A stretch of DNA of 64,000 bases, taken from the NCBI GenBank assembly GCA_020354575.1, contig CP070649.1, positions 1,241,053-1,305,052 on the forward strand, in the 5' to 3' direction. The stretch's first letter is position 1; every line of letters starts with the position of its first letter. The DNA comes from Candidatus Bathyarchaeota archaeon. Lineage in GTDB: Archaea; Thermoproteota; Bathyarchaeia; Bathyarchaeales; SOJC01. Under the pieces are notes generated by a model. The model made no database searches and had not been told where the DNA came from. It saw nothing but the letters and a program-made list of their open reading frames with translations. The position numbers were made by a program, and so were the translations under genes. This document shows positions 54,045-64,000 of this stretch, piece after piece.

Positions 54045-55763
54045 CTAGAAGATTATGAATATTATCAGATATATTGCGTAGCCTATAAGAATAAGACCGC
54101 TAATTGCTCTAATTTTAAATCGATGTTTGTAGGCCTCTCTAGCCATTTTGGAAATTGATCCAGCAAAGACTCCTATGCCAATGAAGGGAATTATTGCACC
54201 TATGGCAAAAATTGAAAGCGTTAGTGGCAGCAGATTACCAAAGAGCGCAGGTTCTAGTCTAACCATCGAAATGAAAATTGGTGCAATGCAAGGATCTAGG
54301 AAATAGAAGATGAAGCCAAGAATGAGAATCCCTGCAAGCGTGATTGCATGCCTTCTGGCAAGCTTCTGGAGAATTGGTTTAGTCTTGAAGGGCACTTTTA
54401 ATAATCCAACCAGATTTAACCCGAAAATTATTGCGAAAACACATACGGTTAATGTCAAGGAAGTCTGGAGGGTTGGTAACGAGAGAAACACTAGAGCAGC
54501 AGCTAACCCCAAAATGGCAGCCGCTGAAACAAACCCTATTCCAAAAAGCATCACCTTTGTAAAACTTTCTTTGAATTTTGTTGTTTCGCCTATAGTGAAA
54601 CTCAATATGAATGATAACATAATTATCAAGCAAGGAGAAAGGGTTTCAAAAAACCCAAATGAGAAAGCTACAACGAAAAGAGCAGCCAAATCTTGAGATG
54701 GCAAAGCCAGAATCTCAATATCACCAAAGAAAAACCAATTATTTTCCAAGTTGGTTTCATCCGCAACTGGCATGGCCCAAGCAGTTATTGTATAATTTCC
54801 AGTGGTTTGATTTATGGTATCCCACTTGAAAATCAGCGAAACCTCAGTCTTTGGACTTAAATTGCAGACCGGCATCATCCCAATTAAAAATTGATTCCCA
54901 TGATAAGCGCTTACATTTAAGCTTTCAGTTGCTGTTCCGTTATTCCTGACAATTACTGTGATAGGTACTTGCTCCCCTACATTTACAGTGGTAAGTGACA
55001 GAGAAATCGAAAGGATGGCGACATCGTGTATGATTGTTGGCGGAGTGAATGGAGCTCTGACTTCTACAAGCCCGTAACTGAGTGAGTTATCTTCGGTATC
55101 AGTTTCATTTTGAACAAGACTTGCTTGTGCACTTATAGAATAGTTGCCTTCTAACACATTCTGAGTGTCCCAATGATACTCTAAGAGCCTTTCTGTATTA
55201 GGTTCTAAATTTTCAACAAGTAAAGTCTGAATAATGTTGGAGTTGAAAAAAGTTGTTACATTGCAGGATTCTATTTGATTTCCCTCATTCTTGATGGTGA
55301 CATTTATGTGGAGAGGCTCGCCAATTTGGATGCTGGTATTTGATGCAACGACATGAAGAATTGCAATGTCGTGAATGGGAGCGGGTCGCAAATATTCATC
55401 AATAAGCACTCGCATCTCAGTTTCATTGGCAAAACCCCTAAACACTGCTTCATAATTCACTACAATCGTATTCCAATCTGTCACGTTAAGATTGTACTGT
55501 TCTTGCTTCTCAAGACCCTCTGGAGAGTAGAATTCTATCCATTCAACTGTGATTTCGCTTCCGTAGTCACTTTCCAAGTCAAAAATTACTTGGCGGTTAT
55601 GTAGAAATATCTGATAGTCTTCCTCAAATCCTGGACATACAGCACAAGGCTCAAACCAGAGAAATTCAATAGGAACAGAATCTATTGAATGTCCGATTTT
55701 TACACAAAAAAGAACAAGAACGAACAGGATTAACGAAAAAGACACCGCTTTCCTAATGAACAT
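54045..55763 (-). CDS. Thioredoxin-like / CARDB / CARDB / CcdA fusion membrane protein
   Basis: A 572-residue protein. After a signal peptide, residues 30-130 begin IEFLWFEPCAVCPGFEEDY, a thioredoxin-like strand with C40-A-V-C43, and continue with a Trx-like strand/helix pattern. About 135-240 and 245-350 are two CARDB-type Ig domains (ASNTSIQIGEPLHINVTIKN and SLSLTTVNVGEQVPITVIVR). From about 356 a DsbD/CcdA membrane domain follows, with its two cysteines in ETLSPCLIIML (C378) and YFLDPCIAPIF (C492), the proline-cysteine positions that carry electrons across the membrane. This would link an extracellular disulfide to a membrane electron conduit in one chain. It is the last gene of a surface-protein operon. 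Confidence 0.8.
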   Translation of the reverse strand: MFIRKAVSFSLILFVLVLFCVKIGHSIDSVPIEFLWFEPCAVCPGFEEDYQIFLHNRQVIFDLESDYGSEITVEWIEFYSPEGLEKQEQYNLNVTDWNTIVVNYEAVFRGFANETEMRVLIDEYLRPAPIHDIAILHVVASNTSIQIGEPLHINVTIKNEGNQIESCNVTTFFNSNIIQTLLVENLEPNTERLLEYHWDTQNVLEGNYSISAQASLVQNETDTEDNSLSYGLVEVRAPFTPPTIIHDVAILSISLSLTTVNVGEQVPITVIVRNNGTATESLNVSAYHGNQFLIGMMPVCNLSPKTEVSLIFKWDTINQTTGNYTITAWAMPVADETNLENNWFFFGDIEILALPSQDLAALFVVAFSFGFFETLSPCLIIMLSFILSFTIGETTKFKESFTKVMLFGIGFVSAAAILGLAAALVFLSLPTLQTSLTLTVCVFAIIFGLNLVGLLKVPFKTKPILQKLARRHAITLAGILILGFIFYFLDPCIAPIFISMVRLEPALFGNLLPLTLSIFAIGAIIPFIGIGVFAGSISKMAREAYKHRFKIRAISGLILIGYAIYLIIFIIF

Positions 55764-55851: not shown

Positions 55852-57294
55852 TCATTCTGTCCTTTTTAAAGATCCGAAAAAGCCGATCTTTTTCAAAACA
55901 GTCTTTATTATCATCAGAATTGACGCCAACATCAAAATTAAGGGGATAAAGAGGAATTCCTGAATTACCATGATTATCTCTTGCTCACTCTCATGCAAAT
56001 ATGCAAAATAGAGCATAGTAAAATCTTGGCTAGTAGCCAGTTCTTTTAATAGCAAAGGATTTTGTCCATTGATTGTCACATTGTAGGGTTTTTGCATTAA
56101 GCTGTGTGGAAGTTTCATTATGATAAAACCCCAAGTTCCTATTTGTCCAGAGGTTTCCAAAATTATCGTTCCATTGGAAGTGAAGCTTGGCGAATATACA
56201 GCACTGATAATTGTTGAGTTTGAAATGATCTCAACCAAAAAGCGTTCATCATCTCGGGAGAGTTCCCAGAAAGAGCTTTTCCCAACAAGAGGATAGAGAT
56301 CGATTTCTTCGCCATTATCCAGATATGGTGTTTCGCCTATTCCATCATTATTATTGTCTCTTCCAGTGTAGTCACTCCAGAAATTCCCGTAACCATCATG
56401 ATACCAAGATACATTTTCTACAGATTCTACTAGGAGCTGCATAGCATTATCGATGAAATTATTTAGATAGATACTTACGTTGTGGGACATCCTCAGAATC
56501 ATACCCCACCAGCTGTGGTTAGCTATATTGTTTCCCTTTACAATTGTATAATTTGACAATCGGACTGAGATTCCCGCCCAATCATTCTCAAAAATGTTGT
56601 TGTAAGATATTGTATTATTGTTTGAACGCAACAAGCCTATTCCTCCTTCATTCATCCCAGCGAGACCAAGAACATCATTCCAACTTATTACATTGCAGTC
56701 TGACACGTGCAAGAACAGCGCTTGGCTCCACCTCATGGTAGCTATAAAGACATTTTTTCCAATGTAACTTTTATCCGTGTTGAAGAATTTTATAGCGTGG
56801 TAGTAGAAATCGCTAGCGAAGTTTTCGATAAGCGTTATATTTTCACAGTTATCTACAAAGACGCCAATACCACTTGATAGACCACCATCGAATATTCCAA
56901 AATTCGTGATCATGTTTCCTTTAACTAAACAATTTTTCACATCATGCAGCAGAATTCCTGTGCCAGCATTTTTCAGAGAAAACCCAGAGAGGGTGACATT
57001 ATTAGCTAATACTTGAATTAGAACCTTCGTTCCATTTCCTTCTATTACAGTTGTCGATTTGTCTTCCCCGAACAGATGTATTGTCTTGTTGATCACAATG
57101 TATTCTGTGTAAATTCCGCTCCGCACAAGAATGAAGTGATTTGGACTTGCAGCGTCAATTGCTTCCTGTATCGAACTATAATCGTCAGGAACCGTGATAT
57201 CATAAGATTCCAGCGCCATACCGGCTCTGAGATCTGTACTAATGGCAAGCAATACCAAAATCAGAAAGACACTGACCACTCGTGGGGCTTTCAT
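55852..57294 (-). CDS. NosD-type right-handed beta-helix surface protein
   Basis: A protein of about 480 residues with a signal peptide (VFLILVLLAIS region). The entry YDITVPDDYSSIQEAIDAAS and LVRSGIYTEYIVINKTIHLF are typical of NosD/pectate-lyase-like helices. The repeats (VSDCNVISWNDV, NNTISYNNIFENDWAGI, NYTIVKGNNIANHSWWGM) form the coils. The helix closes with GYGNFWSDYTGRDNNNDGIG, then a beta domain and a C-terminal span (FLFIPLILMLASILMIIKTV). ATG 57294 stands 2 bases after the upstream stop with an AAGGT site, so the ATG at 57321 is not needed. It probably recognises a polymer or metal outside the cell. Confidence 0.82.
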   Translation of the reverse strand: MKAPRVVSVFLILVLLAISTDLRAGMALESYDITVPDDYSSIQEAIDAASPNHFILVRSGIYTEYIVINKTIHLFGEDKSTTVIEGNGTKVLIQVLANNVTLSGFSLKNAGTGILLHDVKNCLVKGNMITNFGIFDGGLSSGIGVFVDNCENITLIENFASDFYYHAIKFFNTDKSYIGKNVFIATMRWSQALFLHVSDCNVISWNDVLGLAGMNEGGIGLLRSNNNTISYNNIFENDWAGISVRLSNYTIVKGNNIANHSWWGMILRMSHNVSIYLNNFIDNAMQLLVESVENVSWYHDGYGNFWSDYTGRDNNNDGIGETPYLDNGEEIDLYPLVGKSSFWELSRDDERFLVEIISNSTIISAVYSPSFTSNGTIILETSGQIGTWGFIIMKLPHSLMQKPYNVTINGQNPLLLKELATSQDFTMLYFAYLHESEQEIIMVIQEFLFIPLILMLASILMIIKTVLKKIGFFGSLKRTE

Positions 57295-57296
57295 TT

Positions 57297-58271
57297 TCAG
57301 ACCTTCGTTCGAAATTTGCAAACAACTTTCATGTCCAATGCTTTGATTGAGACGGTTCTATTTTGGGAATCTCGTGCCAAATCACCAACTGCGGATTGAT
57401 TGGACTTTTGCGTATGTTTCCGTCTTCTTTTGTTGCGGAGACGTGTACGCTTTTTAATCTTCGCTACAGCATATGCACCAACTAAAACAACAAAAGAAAA
57501 GACAATTAAGATAATGAAAACCGTGACAACACTTTGGAATCCTCCGTTTTCTCCGTTTTCTCCGTTTACACTAAATGGCGCGAATACAACATCTTCCTTC
57601 GTAACATAGGTGGGGTTAATGGAGACTGCTGTTAAAGAGTACCATTTGACTTCTTCGAGATTCTCCGTAAACGGATAAGTGATATTAAAGAATTCGCCTT
57701 CGCTGGAATTTAAATAAAATGTGGCCTCACTGTGAACTCCTATGACTTCCTGACTTGAGTCGTAGTAAGTAGCATAAACAGACGCTGAAAATACCTGGGA
57801 ATCTCCCTCGTTTACCAGAAATACTAGTATGCTGTTTTGCACCGGTATGTATGCATACGAAGTAATGTTCAGTCTGGCAGGCACTGTTTCAACCTCTATT
57901 TCGTAGCTTTTTATACTTACTTGAAAACTTCTGATCTGGGCTGCGAGAGAAGCATTATTAATCCAATAAATAAACGGAGACCTTCTCCCTTCTAGTATTA
58001 CTGGCAATGCAATCGTGTCTGTATCTGAGAAGGTCCCTTCACTGCTATTGAGTTGAAATTCAATATCTAAGATTACATTCTTTATAGGTTTGGATCCCAC
58101 GTTCTGAACTTCGCCCAGAACGACATAAAACTCTGAGGTTATGGGGAAGCCATTGTAGCTGGTTAAAATAATGTCTTCTTGTGCCCTAGCCACCTGCGTG
58201 CTTGAGCAAAAAACCGTTATAAAAAGCATAAAAGTTAATAGACCATAAACTGTTCTTGCTTTGTCGACCAT
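57297..58271 (-). CDS. Membrane-anchored FxLYD-like surface protein
   Basis: A protein of about 324 residues: signal peptide (YGLLTFMLFITVFC), extracellular beta domain with FYVVLGEVQNVGSKPIKNVI, which matches the FxLYD-type repeat, a second related domain near residue 150, then one span (VVTVFIILIVFSFVVLVGAY) and a very basic cytoplasmic tail of about 55 residues (TRLRNKRRRKHTQK). The repeated ENGENGG linker precedes the span. ATG 58271 is preferred to the longer reading. It is the first gene of the operon with NosD and the thiol-relay fusion. The role may be a surface scaffold. Confidence 0.72.
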   Translation of the reverse strand: MVDKARTVYGLLTFMLFITVFCSSTQVARAQEDIILTSYNGFPITSEFYVVLGEVQNVGSKPIKNVILDIEFQLNSSEGTFSDTDTIALPVILEGRRSPFIYWINNASLAAQIRSFQVSIKSYEIEVETVPARLNITSYAYIPVQNSILVFLVNEGDSQVFSASVYATYYDSSQEVIGVHSEATFYLNSSEGEFFNITYPFTENLEEVKWYSLTAVSINPTYVTKEDVVFAPFSVNGENGENGGFQSVVTVFIILIVFSFVVLVGAYAVAKIKKRTRLRNKRRRKHTQKSNQSAVGDLARDSQNRTVSIKALDMKVVCKFRTKV

Positions 58272-58478
58272 TATGAGACCTTCACACATGCATGCGAGCA
58301 TCCATAAAATTCGGGCTCTGCGTTTTATCCTTTTCGTTTTGTACAACTACGAGAAATTGGGGGTTATCCGGAACAGTACTATCTCTTGAATACTTGAATT
58401 AATCTTTAAATTTATGTGTAGTTTATATTAATCATTATATGCCACTTACCTGATTTGAACAATATGAGAGGTTATTGA

Positions 58479-58934: not shown

Positions 58935-59939
58935 TTATTCTAATGGAAAGTGGCAAGCAACTGTTCGACCTTTTCCAGACGGGCTCAGTTTTGGCTCTTC
59001 TTTTCCACATCTCCCCTTAGCATAGGGGCATCTGGGGTGGAATCTGCATCCAGGTGGAGGATTTATTGGATTTGCAACTTCTCCCTTTATCACTATTTCT
59101 CTGCGTCTTGCCGTGGGATCTGGCACTGGCACTGCAGCTAATAATGCCTCTGTGTAAGGATGATGGGGATGGTGAACTATGTCTTCAGTTAGCCCCAATT
59201 CAACTATTTGACCTAAATACATAACCCCAACTCTGTTGCAGATGTATCTGGTTAGCGCTATATCATGGGTGATGTAAAGGAATGCACAGGCCAATTTCTG
59301 AACCATCCCAAGGATCAGTTCCACAACTTCCGTTCTCATTGAGGCATCCAACATAGAGACTGGTTCATCGGCTACGACGAATTCAGGGGTCATGATGAAA
59401 GCTCTCGCCACAGCAACTCTTTGTCTTTGGCCTCCGCTTAGTTCGTGAGGAAACCTATAAAGGAATTCTTCTGGTGGCACTAATCCCATTTCTCCCAAAA
59501 CTTTGGTTTCAAGACCAATTATTTCATCTGGGCCTTCAGCAATGTGTTGAAGTTGAAGTGGCTCGGCCAAGATGTCATATATGCTCATTCTGGGATTGAG
59601 AGATTCATATGGATCTTGGAAAATTATCTGAAGTCTTCGCCTCATATTTCTCATTTCTGTTGGGTCGAGTTTAATTAAGTCTGAGCCTTTGAAGTTCACT
59701 TGTCCAGAGGTGGGCTCAATTAAACGTAGTATAGACCTTCCAGTTGTTGTTTTTCCGCATCCACTTTCTCCTACTAATCCGAAGATTTCTCTCTCTCCTA
59801 TCCTAAAACTTACTCCATCAACAGCACGTACATATAGTTGTTCCTTGGAAAGGAGCGATTTTAAAAAGCCCATTTTTACCATAAAATACTTCTTGAGATT
59901 TTTAACATCCAAAACAGTGTTCTCTTCCATTGAAATCAC
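58935..59939 (-). CDS. Oligopeptide ABC transporter ATP-binding protein OppF
   Basis: A 334-residue ATPase. Walker A GESGCGKTTTGRSIL, Q loop, signature LSGGQRQR, Walker B VVADEPVSMLD and switch histidine THDIALT are intact. The C terminus has PPGCRFHPRCPYAKGRCGKE, the cysteine-rich oligopeptide/nickel-transporter C-terminal region. The GTG start overlaps the OppD stop by 4 bases, and an ATG at 59930 is possible. It would energise uptake of peptides (or nickel or other chelates) with OppD. Confidence 0.92.
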   Translation of the reverse strand: MISMEENTVLDVKNLKKYFMVKMGFLKSLLSKEQLYVRAVDGVSFRIGEREIFGLVGESGCGKTTTGRSILRLIEPTSGQVNFKGSDLIKLDPTEMRNMRRRLQIIFQDPYESLNPRMSIYDILAEPLQLQHIAEGPDEIIGLETKVLGEMGLVPPEEFLYRFPHELSGGQRQRVAVARAFIMTPEFVVADEPVSMLDASMRTEVVELILGMVQKLACAFLYITHDIALTRYICNRVGVMYLGQIVELGLTEDIVHHPHHPYTEALLAAVPVPDPTARRREIVIKGEVANPINPPPGCRFHPRCPYAKGRCGKEEPKLSPSGKGRTVACHFPLE

Positions 59940-60895
59940 TCAACCAAATGGCAAGCAACGAAATGATCTTCGCCTTTTATGTGTATAGATTGAGGGTCTT
60001 CTTTTCCGCATTTATCCATGGCGTAGGGGCATCTGGGGTGGAATCTGCATCCAGGTGGCGGACTCAATAGATCCGGCGGAAAGCCTGAAATTCTTGAGAG
60101 CTTAGCTATAGGTCCTAAAATGCTTGGAAAAGCCCCCAAAAGGAGCTTGGTGTATGGATGAAACGGCTCCTTGTAAATTCGCGCTATATCTCCTCTTTCA
60201 ACAATTTTTCCGGCGTACATTATTCCAATCCGATCACACGTTTCAGCTATCATTGACAAATCATGTGAAATCACTGCCATTGCTATATTCAGCTTCTTCT
60301 GAAGGTCCTTTATTACTTTCAACACTTGAGCTTCTATTATTACGTCAAGTGCAGTGGTTGGCTCATCTGCTATTATGAAGCTGGGATTGGATGATAAAGC
60401 CATTGCGATGATTGCCCTTTGCCTCATACCTCCACTGAGTTCATGGGCGTATCTTTCAACTCTCTCCGACCCAATGCCGACTAGATCCAACAACTTTCCA
60501 GCTCGGTCTAGGGCTTCCTCCTTGCTAAGATTTTCATGGGTTAAAATTGCTTCCGAAATTTGCTGGCCTACAGTCATCACAGGATTGAGAGAGTTCATAG
60601 CTCCTTGGAATATTACAGATATTTTCTTCCACCTGATGTCTTTTCGATATTTTTCTGGGTTCATTTCCAAGAGGTTTTTGCCTTCGAAATGAATTTCTCC
60701 AGAGATTACTTTTCCGTTCTGTGGCAATAGTCTCAAGATTGAAAGAGCTGTTGTTGTTTTTCCGCATCCACTTTCTCCAGCTAGTCCGAACGCGTCTCCT
60801 TTTTCCACAGTAAAGCTGATATTTTCCACAGCTTTCACTTCTCCTCTTAAGATGTCGAAATAGGTTGTTAGATTTTCAACATCCAGAAGGCCCAT
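59936..60895 (-). CDS. Oligopeptide ABC transporter ATP-binding protein OppD
   Basis: A 319-residue ATPase partner of OppF. Walker A GESGCGKTTTALSIL, signature LSGGMRQR, Walker B FIIADEPTTALD and switch ISHDLSM are all intact. The cysteine-rich C terminus PPGCRFHPRCPYAMDKCGKE is almost the same as in the next gene, consistent with an OppD/OppF pair by old duplication. It starts one base after the DppC stop, and its own stop overlaps the next start. Both subunits bind the DppB/DppC permease pair. Confidence 0.92.
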   Translation of the reverse strand: MGLLDVENLTTYFDILRGEVKAVENISFTVEKGDAFGLAGESGCGKTTTALSILRLLPQNGKVISGEIHFEGKNLLEMNPEKYRKDIRWKKISVIFQGAMNSLNPVMTVGQQISEAILTHENLSKEEALDRAGKLLDLVGIGSERVERYAHELSGGMRQRAIIAMALSSNPSFIIADEPTTALDVIIEAQVLKVIKDLQKKLNIAMAVISHDLSMIAETCDRIGIMYAGKIVERGDIARIYKEPFHPYTKLLLGAFPSILGPIAKLSRISGFPPDLLSPPPGCRFHPRCPYAMDKCGKEDPQSIHIKGEDHFVACHLVE

Positions 60896-60896
60896 T

Positions 60897-63029
60897 TTAA
60901 CGTCTTCTCCTCAATCTTGGATTAACTATTTCGTCTAAAGCATGTCCTATGAAAACAAAGGCTAAGCACAAAAATGTTATCGCAATGCCAGGGGGTATCA
61001 CATACCACCATGCAAGTTCCGCAAATGCACCTTCAGCTTGAGCTTCATGAAGCATCTTTCCCCAAGTTGGTGCAAGTGGGTCTCCGAACCCAAGAAAACT
61101 CAATGCAGCTTCTGTTAGTATCGCTCCTGGTACAGCAAGAACCAAAGAAGCCATTGCAAGAGGAAAGACGTTTGGTATCAAGTGTCTGAATATCAAATAC
61201 GAGCTTGAGGCTCCCGACGCTTTTGCGCTTTCTATGAATGGCATTTCTCTTAGAGAAAGCACTCTTGATCTTATTATTCTTGAAAGTCCCTGCCATCCAA
61301 AGATAGCAATTATTATGACTAGATAGTAAACATTAGGGCTCCAGTATGCAGCTAGTGTGAGAAGCAATGGTAATACTGGCAAGCATAATAGGACGTCAAC
61401 TATTCGCATAATTGCTTCATCTACTATTCCTGAGACATAACCTGCAGTAACTCCAAAAAATATTCCTAATGAAGTGGCGAGTACTGCTGCAAGGCTACCA
61501 ACTATTAATGAAACCCTAGCGCCATGAATTAGTTGTGTCCAAACATCATAGCCGAAAGAGGTTGTGCCTAGTAAACCCCAAACTGATCCCCAAACTGTGA
61601 ATTTACTTGTTTCGCCAAACGTCAGTGATAATGTTGCGTTTTCTGATTTAGGTAGAATATGAAGCTTGAGTAACAACGCTTGGGTTCCATTGTATTGGAG
61701 AAAGTATGTTGGCACTGGGGCGACAGCTGCTAAGGTGAAGGCTTCCTCCTTTGCAAGTCTGTCTGCAAGTGCGTGGGCTGCTTCCAAAGGCGCAACATAT
61801 TTACTTAGAAACGAGGAGCTCGCTCTGCTTTGAATATCTATCCACATCTCCAAATATTTCGTCCATGGAGCATCTGTCTGTCCTGTTGCATTAAGATTGA
61901 GCCATCTTACATAAGCTGGACTTGTAGGATCGGTCCTATTCATCGTGTTGACATAATCGTTCCAATCATCTTTGATCGATGTAAAAGTGAGATTCCACAC
62001 GTTCATGAATTCAGACCATGAGATACTATCTTTATAGTTGTAGTCTGCCCCTTCGGGTTTTCCTAGATCCCACGCTAGATAGGCAGCACTAGCATAACTT
62101 GTGATATTCCTCGTTTTTACAAACTCAACCCAACTAGTTTTCATGTATTCATATGTAACAAGCCAGAGTGCGGCACCATCGGAGCTATTCCAAGCTTGCC
62201 AATATTCTATCCAAGTGGCATTAGTTTGTCCTTCTGAAACCGCATCGAGATATTGGGAATATATTGGATTGTCCACAACTTCTATTTTTGACTTATTTTG
62301 AAATCCTTCGCTTGTAAAAGCGAGAAATTCAGGAGTAATAGTGAAATTTCCTGCTGAATATTTCGCTATGTGGTAGTCATAGCGCTCTTGATAAAACTTC
62401 TCATAGTAAATCCTTTGGTTAAGGTATGTTGAACCCGATGTAGTTATATCATTATCCGCTCTGACATTCCACATTTTAGGAAGCACATGAACTCGTTTAG
62501 TCCAAACGTCATAATCTACACCGTATATTATGTATTCTGAGCCGTTCGCTAATCTAAAATGGAATTCAAGCCTATAATCCAAATCCGAAAAGTCTGCAGA
62601 CCAACTTGTTTTGAGGCTCCAATCTCGGGGTTTCTCATATTGATAATCAAACTCTCTCTGGAAAATATAGATCTGCTCGGATAGGTTTCCATCATTGAGG
62701 TAGTTAATCACAAATGAAGAACCCTCTGGATATTCTGTAGTTATTGCATTATATGGCTGTGCTTCTGTCACGTTAAAAGAAATATCATGGGTTATAGGCG
62801 TCCTTGCATATTGCGGGAAAATTTTCAACCAACCTGGCCCAGCATATCTCGCTGCAACCTTATCTTGGTATATTGGATCTTGTGGGGCAAATACAGAAGA
62901 GAAAACTGCGGTAACAGTGAAGAAAATTAAGATTGCAAGTCCTGCGAATCCTACTTTGTTATGGCTAAAATCTAACCAGAAGTTTTTAATTTTTCTTAGA
63001 TAGATCTTCCTTTTTTCCTTCCTCCACAT
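60897..63029 (-). CDS. DppC-type permease with an insertion of about 400 residues
   Basis: A 710-residue protein; DppC proteins are usually about 300. The first span (GFAGLAILIFFTVTAVFSSV) and the phrase FAPQDPIYQDK match the DppC start. Residues of about 55-460 are extracytoplasmic, Tyr/Trp/Asn-rich, with many N-x-S/T sites and no match to known domains. The normal permease domain resumes at GTTSFGYDVWTQLIHGARVS, with the EAA loop ESAKASGASSSYLIFRHLIP and LTEAALSFLGFGDPLAPTWG. The insertion would sit outside the membrane near the binding-protein site, perhaps docking or selecting substrates. Confidence 0.85.
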   Translation of the reverse strand: MWRKEKRKIYLRKIKNFWLDFSHNKVGFAGLAILIFFTVTAVFSSVFAPQDPIYQDKVAARYAGPGWLKIFPQYARTPITHDISFNVTEAQPYNAITTEYPEGSSFVINYLNDGNLSEQIYIFQREFDYQYEKPRDWSLKTSWSADFSDLDYRLEFHFRLANGSEYIIYGVDYDVWTKRVHVLPKMWNVRADNDITTSGSTYLNQRIYYEKFYQERYDYHIAKYSAGNFTITPEFLAFTSEGFQNKSKIEVVDNPIYSQYLDAVSEGQTNATWIEYWQAWNSSDGAALWLVTYEYMKTSWVEFVKTRNITSYASAAYLAWDLGKPEGADYNYKDSISWSEFMNVWNLTFTSIKDDWNDYVNTMNRTDPTSPAYVRWLNLNATGQTDAPWTKYLEMWIDIQSRASSSFLSKYVAPLEAAHALADRLAKEEAFTLAAVAPVPTYFLQYNGTQALLLKLHILPKSENATLSLTFGETSKFTVWGSVWGLLGTTSFGYDVWTQLIHGARVSLIVGSLAAVLATSLGIFFGVTAGYVSGIVDEAIMRIVDVLLCLPVLPLLLTLAAYWSPNVYYLVIIIAIFGWQGLSRIIRSRVLSLREMPFIESAKASGASSSYLIFRHLIPNVFPLAMASLVLAVPGAILTEAALSFLGFGDPLAPTWGKMLHEAQAEGAFAELAWWYVIPPGIAITFLCLAFVFIGHALDEIVNPRLRRRR

Positions 63030-63036
63030 CCATCAT

Positions 63037-64000
63037 CTACCTCCTAACGCCAACCTTGATACGGGGGTCTAAAAGACCATAGAGCACATCTGAAAGAAGA
63101 TTCGCAATTATCATTAGGAAAGCGAAGTTAAATAGCACTGCCTGGGTGACTGGATGGTTTCCCGTATTGAGAGCAGCGATATACCATTGTCCTATACCTG
63201 GCCAGTTGAAGATAGATTCTGTGATTATTGCTCCTGTAACCAGTCCTGGTATAGCCATTGCGATCATTGTTGCTATTGGTGGCAATATGCTTCTGAACGC
63301 ATGCTTGTATAGCACATCTCTTTCCCTCAACCCTTTAGCCTTCGCCGTTACAATAAAGTCTTCTGTGAGCGCATCAATTATCATATTGCGGGCATATAAT
63401 GCCCAAGACCCGAAGCTAATGAGTATTAGTGTGATCACTGGGCCAGCTGCATGCTGTAAGACATCTCCTACTAATATTATTGGGTTTTTTGGTGGCGGGT
63501 AACTCATGACACCTCCAAATGGCATTAATTGGAATCCAAACCAGACATTCGAGTAGTAGGCGAAAAAAAGCAGAAAAAGCAGCTGGAGAAAGAACGAAGG
63601 TAGACCCCAAGTTAGTAATCCAGCTCCCATAACCAAGACATCTGTCTTCTTTCCTCTTCTTGAACCAGCAAGAACTCCAAGGGGGAGACCAATAGCCACC
63701 GTTCCAATGAGTCCCATGCCCAAGAGTATAAGTGTGTTTCTCAGTCTCCATGCCATTTCTGGGCCTATTGGTCGAGGTGGCGTCGAGAAAGTATATCCGT
63801 ACTGCCAAGTTAGTAGGTTTAATATGTATTTTCCGTATTGATCTGGAAACAAGGGTTGATTTAGCCCCCAGATTTCTCGTAACATCTCTCTAGCCTCAGG
63901 AGGAAAACCTGGTTGTATTATGAGTTGGGAAGGGTCGCCAACTGGATGAATGACTCTGAATATAACGAAATTAAGTGTGATTACAACCCATAAAATGAAA
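63037..64000 (-). CDS. DppB-type permease (5' end outside the window)
   Basis: At least 320 residues, open to the right edge; the start lies beyond 64000. Upstream of an internal ATG at 63885 the frame stays open and reads ILWVVITLNFVIFRVIHPVG, which is the first span and the following loop of DppB proteins, so that ATG is not the start. Then come AWRLRNTLILLGMGLIGTVA, LAGSRRGKKTDVLV and the EAA loop AKAKGLRERDVLYKHAFRSI, ending GLLDPRIKVG. The binding protein of this system is probably in the next part of the operon, off the window. Confidence 0.9.
   Translation of the reverse strand, partial: FILWVVITLNFVIFRVIHPVGDPSQLIIQPGFPPEAREMLREIWGLNQPLFPDQYGKYILNLLTWQYGYTFSTPPRPIGPEMAWRLRNTLILLGMGLIGTVAIGLPLGVLAGSRRGKKTDVLVMGAGLLTWGLPSFFLQLLFLLFFAYYSNVWFGFQLMPFGGVMSYPPPKNPIILVGDVLQHAAGPVITLILISFGSWALYARNMIIDALTEDFIVTAKAKGLRERDVLYKHAFRSILPPIATMIAMAIPGLVTGAIITESIFNWPGIGQWYIAALNTGNHPVTQAVLFNFAFLMIIANLLSDVLYGLLDPRIKVGVRR

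Follow-up and report, generated by a model that had tools for sequence, protein, structure and literature searches.

We describe a 572-amino-acid protein of the Bathyarchaeia that probably works as a one-chain, outward reductive thiol relay with a hinged CARDB arm. From the N to the C terminus it carries a signal peptide, a thioredoxin domain with a CAVC motif, two CARDB domains and a CcdA domain of six helices, whose cysteines lie in SPC and DPC motifs. Its gene lies in the window, by which we mean the whole 64,000-nucleotide stretch of DNA that was analysed (Table 1). The relay reading builds on the domains and their folds, on conserved cysteines, on signals of topology and on the redox genes present, each of them demonstrated or well supported. 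Little is known of how surface disulfides are maintained in S-layer archaea, and a conduit, an arm and a terminal carrier united in one chain could be tested with a single gene.

Table 1 Features of the thioredoxin-CARDB-CARDB-CcdA gene and its neighbours, in window coordinates
Feature	Residues	Position	Strand	Basis
Whole gene, thioredoxin-CARDB-CARDB-CcdA	572 aa	54045..55763	minus	ATG start
Signal peptide / N-terminal hydrophobic segment	1-26	55686..55763	minus	Sequence; model helix 2-19
Thioredoxin-fold domain	28-128	55380..55682	minus	AF2; Foldseek against PDB; PDB profile matches
Active-site CAVC	C40, C43	55635..55646	minus	Conserved 18/18
Asn at the cis-proline position, directly before strand beta3 (residues 99-102)	N98	55470..55472	minus	Alignment; predicted strands
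CARDB domain 1	131-236	55056..55373	minus	Pfam PF07705; Ig-type strands in model
CARDB domain 2	244-354	54702..55034	minus	Pfam PF07705
CcdA membrane domain, six TM helices	356-572	54048..54698	minus	5vkv profile; AF2 helices; positive-inside loops
Cysteine of SPC, first half of CcdA inverted repeat	C378	54630..54632	minus	Invariant 19/19
Cysteine of DPC, second half of CcdA inverted repeat	C492	54288..54290	minus	Invariant 19/19
NosD-like beta-helix surface protein, C-terminal TM		55852..57321	minus	Pfam NosD 1e-20; 88 bp upstream of the gene
FxLYD-type membrane-anchored protein		57297..58346	minus	NCBIfam NF038353; homologue in L043 locus
Oligopeptide (Opp/Dpp) ABC transporter genes		58935..63999, running off the window	minus	Pfam ABC_tran, oligo_HPY; syntenic elsewhere

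Domain architecture and family

When the 572-residue protein was searched alone, Pfam reported two stretches of CARDB (PF07705; 52.5 bits against a cut-off of 22.7, E 6e-14) with no other family above cut-off, and NCBIfam gave no match. Ordinary annotation would thus label it a CARDB protein, and the thioredoxin and CcdA parts, which neither database recovers from this sequence, are hidden under that label. These two assignments were therefore tested through relatives. Homologues were searched for in 61 related genomes, then across the class (257 genomes), the phylum (398 genomes) and a named collection, and 19 proteins were aligned. The named records belong to Candidatus Bathyarchaeota, together with one Candidatus Baldrarchaeota (L039) and one uncultured archaeon (L043). 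A collinear relative with 49% identity exists, so the reading frame is not a chance one. Pfam scans of the family members matched Thioredoxin_3 in 3 of the 19 and DsbD_TM in 5, the window protein not being among the latter.

Because all 19 proteins are homologous in both their thioredoxin and their CcdA parts, we regard the family as a thioredoxin-CcdA fusion into which CARDB domains are variably inserted. Two CARDBs are present in four proteins (the window protein, L031, L032 and L061), one in three (L033-L035) and none in the remaining 12, in which the same thioredoxin is tied directly to the same CcdA through a short linker. This short linkage implies that thioredoxin and CcdA must work together. 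Among the relatives found, CARDB-bearing forms are restricted to Bathyarchaeia. A further one-CARDB orthologue in genome G012 (L006; L094:8065-9365, minus strand) has a frame break inside its CARDB and is either a pseudogene or an assembly error.

A first-pass annotation had placed a Trx-like CxxC domain, two CARDBs and CcdA on one chain at the coordinates given here, which are correct, leaving out the strand. Pfam, the profiles of relatives and the predicted folds bear out this composition. The domain order itself is shared by the four two-CARDB proteins, and the direct fusion is the commoner form.

The full-chain structure model has a pLDDT of 82.9 and a pTM of 0.44; at this pTM the relative orientation of the domains is uncertain. 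Confidence is low at residues 21-27, where the signal peptide ends. A Foldseek search with the whole chain retrieved mostly multi-domain and Ig-like proteins, owing to the tandem CARDBs, and was uninformative on the first domain. For this reason the N domain was folded separately.

A thioredoxin fold with asparagine in place of cis-proline

Folded alone from 22 aligned sequences, the N domain was predicted with high confidence (pLDDT 96.4, pTM 0.87) and has the element order beta-alpha-beta-alpha-beta-beta-alpha. Each of the best 50 Foldseek matches in the PDB is a thioredoxin or a fusion containing one (TM 0.54-0.68), and a profile of the first domain built from relatives finds the archaeal thioredoxins 1fo5 (E 3e-16) and 1nho (E 2e-13). 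With a profile of the fused domains lacking cis-proline, from which standalone thioredoxins and other cis-proline-bearing rows were left out, 1fo5 is still found at E 6e-4. Every one of the 18 relatives that cover the region keeps both C40 and C43. The thioredoxin fold and the conserved cysteine pairs on which the first-pass annotation had staked its proposal are thus both present, C378 and C492 being invariant in the 19 proteins. The alignment also places an insert of about 10 residues directly after the CxxC (residues 44-53, window positions 55605-55634), making the helix longer than in standalone archaeal thioredoxins.

Judged by sequence and predicted strand positions, the domain has Asn98 where thioredoxin-fold oxidoreductases carry their cis-proline. 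The substitution is shared by a supported clade of 14 proteins (support 97/100), of which 13 have Asn and the remaining one has Ser. Outside the clade the position is Pro in four fusions and four standalone thioredoxins and Gln in one fusion. On these grounds the N domain is, as far as its sequence can tell, a thioredoxin-fold CxxC protein and no canonical thioredoxin. Full turnover of thioredoxin-fold oxidoreductases depends on the cis-proline. DsbA is crippled when its cis-proline is substituted, and the residue has been termed a universal catalytic lock (PMC13269488). Ordinary disulfide exchange is consequently not assured with Asn at this position. A clade that combines a strict CxxC with a fixed Asn must either function as an exception to this rule or carry out something besides plain disulfide exchange, and it offers a natural test of the claimed universal need for cis-proline in thioredoxin-fold catalysis.

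One such activity would be metal handling. The domain could bind metal or Fe-S through C40 and C43 and deliver it to surface proteins, with CcdA keeping the thiols reduced. The cis-proline is thought to keep metal off the CxxC, a view credited to Su 2007 in PMC2757866, and its replacement by Asn across nearly all of the clade while the CxxC is strictly kept speaks for this explanation. Against it, the alignment of the 19 proteins has no conserved His or third ligand adjacent to the CxxC, and neither a copper enzyme nor a cytochrome was found as a partner. We consider metal delivery quite unlikely. A composite and more ambitious version of the relay is unlikely too, though less so. In it, a thioredoxin naturally free of cis-proline would be the terminal carrier, and a glycosylated Ig arm would swing it from the membrane conduit of the same chain to cell-wall substrates. 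Such a carrier would be a metal-carrying thiol shuttle, or else an enzyme that works in spite of the proposed universal lock.

The cis-proline-less domain is found once more, on a secreted protein of 378 aa whose C terminus bears a PEF-type anchor (L074:2633-3769, minus strand). Its genome, G002, also holds the zero-CARDB fusion L010.

Membrane domain and topology

The profile of the C-terminal domain matches one solved relative, the CcdA structure 5vkv, over positions 4-206 of 214 (E 6e-9). The hallmark of CcdA, a Pro-preceded cysteine in both TM1 and TM4, is present as SPC378 and DPC492, and in the full-chain model the helices break at these two motifs, in keeping with the inverted repeat of CcdA.

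The N-terminal hydrophobic segment, or signal peptide, directs the N domain to the outside. Predicted cytosolic loops hold 12 K/R against 2 D/E, and the predicted outside loops hold none. All 12 N-glycosylation sequons fall within residues 27-355, leaving 356-572 free of them. Shuffled ectodomains had a mean of 4.1 sequons and reached or exceeded 12 in 0.02% of trials (p 0.0002). From the distribution of charges and sequons, the thioredoxin domain and both CARDBs very probably lie outside the cell, and we infer that the ectodomain is N-glycosylated. The earlier proposal of an extracellular CAVC domain joined to a CcdA domain with PC cysteines agrees with these signals and with the 5vkv match.

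The CARDB spacers

The CARDB cysteines, C167 and C300, are not conserved, unlike all four cysteines of the CxxC and CcdA pairs. They can be ruled out as stepping stones of a relay, and the CARDBs are therefore not relay stations in the way that nDsbD is. Their earlier description as Ig-type spacers stands, and the arm may span an S-layer, as the first-pass annotation suggested.

First-position CARDBs from three lineages cluster together, apart from the second-position copies (88% of bootstraps), and the single CARDB of the one-spacer relatives is orthologous to the one at position two. The clustering of the position-one copies indicates that the double spacer is old and has been retained, and is no recent accident. 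A single clade of all CARDB-bearing proteins was not supported (p-AU 0.048), so both losses and repeated gains are possible.

It could be argued that the relay is real while its spacers have no functional reach, CARDB insertion being near-neutral shuffling from neighbouring CARDB surface genes. This explanation contests the arm and leaves the relay untouched. It draws on the variation from zero to two CARDBs among close relatives and on a separate two-CARDB membrane protein adjoining the zero-CARDB fusion L037, whose two CARDBs share 45% identity with those of the window protein. The orthology of position-one and position-two copies across three lineages, with the double spacer kept, speaks against it, and we think shuffling without function a minority prospect, improbable on balance. 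The neighbour of L037 (L095:3-1004, plus strand) also has a zinc-ribbon-like CxxC pair at its C terminus. It illustrates how a CARDB insert could arise, although CARDB pairs just as similar are present elsewhere.

Redox genes and the proposed relay

Thioredoxin reductase scores above cut-off in the genome from which the window comes, which also encodes two small standalone thioredoxin-type proteins. No match to VKOR and none to the heme ligation protein of the CcmF/CcsA type (PF01578) was found in this genome, which is 93% complete; 9 of 14 control genomes score for PF01578. The presence of thioredoxin reductase, with no VKOR or cytochrome c assembly match, favours outward reduction. An ordinary CcdA of 233 aa is encoded elsewhere in the genome, beside a secreted redoxin-like protein whose CxxC is apparently CQGQ (L077:4167-5598, minus strand, for the two together). 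Since this CcdA is present, the window protein is not the sole conduit.

The CcdA-ResA system is composed of a CcdA domain and an extracellular thioredoxin, and the window protein has the same composition. It might on this account be a cytochrome c maturation factor, which we regard as extremely unlikely given the lack of a PF01578 match in a genome of this completeness and the control result; moreover, the Cys-rich neighbour of two relatives is without CxxCH.

The first-pass annotation had allowed that surface proteins might be either reduced or oxidised. In an oxidative pathway electrons would pass inwards from surface thiols and disulfides would be formed, and without a VKOR match the formation of surface disulfides is otherwise unexplained. 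Characterised CcdA/DsbD conduits nevertheless move reductant outwards (PMC7347389, PMC3914529), and thioredoxin reductase and small thioredoxins are at hand. The oxidising option has accordingly lost ground, and we judge it very unlikely.

There is a precedent for outward reduction in Streptococcus pneumoniae, in which pathways of CcdA and surface thioredoxins take electrons from NADPH outwards (PMC3914529). Modelled on this pneumococcal CcdA-Etrx system and on the first half of DsbD (PMC7347389), the electron path that we propose for the reductive relay would begin with thioredoxin reductase reducing a cytosolic thioredoxin, which would in turn reduce the C378-C492 pair inside the CcdA domain. 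This pair would reduce the C40-C43 disulfide of the extracellular thioredoxin domain on the same chain, and C40-C43 would then reduce disulfide-bearing or otherwise oxidised surface proteins. The two glycosylated, redox-inert CARDBs would serve as a hinged arm, on which the thioredoxin is raised above the membrane and shuttles between its own CcdA and surface proteins. Such an arm would add reach and would have to bend back to recharge, through a presumed contact of the thioredoxin with its own CcdA across two CARDBs, or else recharge from a neighbouring molecule. The direction of the relay, its electron path, the movement of its arm and its substrates are what we infer from the domains and from these precedents.

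Gene neighbourhood and candidate substrates

The Opp operon lies within about 3 kb upstream of the gene, and its ATPase pair is the only close pair of this kind in the genome. An Opp operon lies within about 8-10 kb of the fusion gene at further loci (L036, L039, L040, L043, L090, L091, L093 and L095), and Opp-adjacent fusion genes account for roughly half of the loci whose flanks are long enough. The link between the fusion gene and the Opp operon looks real. Opp substrate-binding proteins were considered as relay substrates and rejected, their cysteines not being conserved among three of them. The substrate-binding protein encoded past the edge of the window (L089:2275-4614) contains 9 cysteines, and its C terminus is dockerin-like.

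Beta-helix genes are also close to the fusion gene in L037, L040 and L043. The NosD-like neighbour in the window is a general beta-helix protein, and the genome has about a dozen such related loci, a further point against metal delivery; with just 3 cysteines, it was also set aside as a dedicated substrate.

The best substrate candidates seen are two secreted Cys-rich proteins, likely redox substrates by prediction, whose genes are adjacent and divergent to a zero-CARDB thioredoxin-CcdA gene in two genomes. The first (L092:9257-11440, plus strand) has 34 Cys in 728 aa, no CxxCH and no Pfam match, and the second (L038:2-1171, minus strand) has 20 Cys in 390 aa and likewise no CxxCH.

Comparison with known systems

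The first-pass annotation had contrasted the window protein with DsbD-type systems, said to divide these parts among separate domains or proteins. This is contradicted by DsbD of E. coli, which passes reductant outwards along a single polypeptide made up of one domain with a thioredoxin fold, one with an immunoglobulin fold and a membrane domain that holds a cysteine pair (PMC7347389). The contrast fails again on the direct thioredoxin-CcdA fusions, which form the majority here and are also present in further lineages of the phylum. The window protein shares the single chain and the three kinds of domain with DsbD and differs in their arrangement, Trx-Ig-Ig-TM as opposed to Ig-TM-Trx. Furthermore, nDsbD is a catalytic Ig domain with C103 and C109, whereas the CARDBs have no conserved cysteines, and in the window protein the thioredoxin end is the proposed terminal carrier.

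With CcdA (PF02683 DsbD_TM; 5vkv) the membrane domain has in common a six-helix inverted repeat and two PC cysteines; the window protein adds an N-terminal secreted ectodomain, and its CcdA domain has diverged enough for Pfam to miss it. In the CcdA-Etrx system of Streptococcus pneumoniae, CcdA also reduces a surface-exposed thioredoxin-fold protein (PMC3914529). There the parts are separate genes and lipoproteins, and the Etrx proteins retain cis-proline, whereas here they form a single chain with Ig spacers.

Closer at hand, the AhpC-TSA/thioredoxin-DsbD_TM fusions that belong to other families in the phylum (L080, L082, L083 and L086) likewise have an N-terminal secreted thioredoxin-fold domain followed by CcdA on one chain. 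Their domain is of the TlpA/ResA type with a WCxPC motif, they have no CARDB, and they are not close homologues of the window N domain. The zero-CARDB proteins of Bathyarchaeia and relatives (L008-L012, L036, L037 and L039) are homologous in both parts and have the same cysteines, differing in the absence of CARDB and in a short, often proline-rich linker.

A literature search found no paper joining CARDB and CcdA. A relay on a single polypeptide is not new, DsbD and the thioredoxin-CcdA fusions already being of this kind. The novelty lies in the order Trx-Ig-Ig-TM, with CARDB spacers that are redox-inert, and in the loss of the cis-proline.
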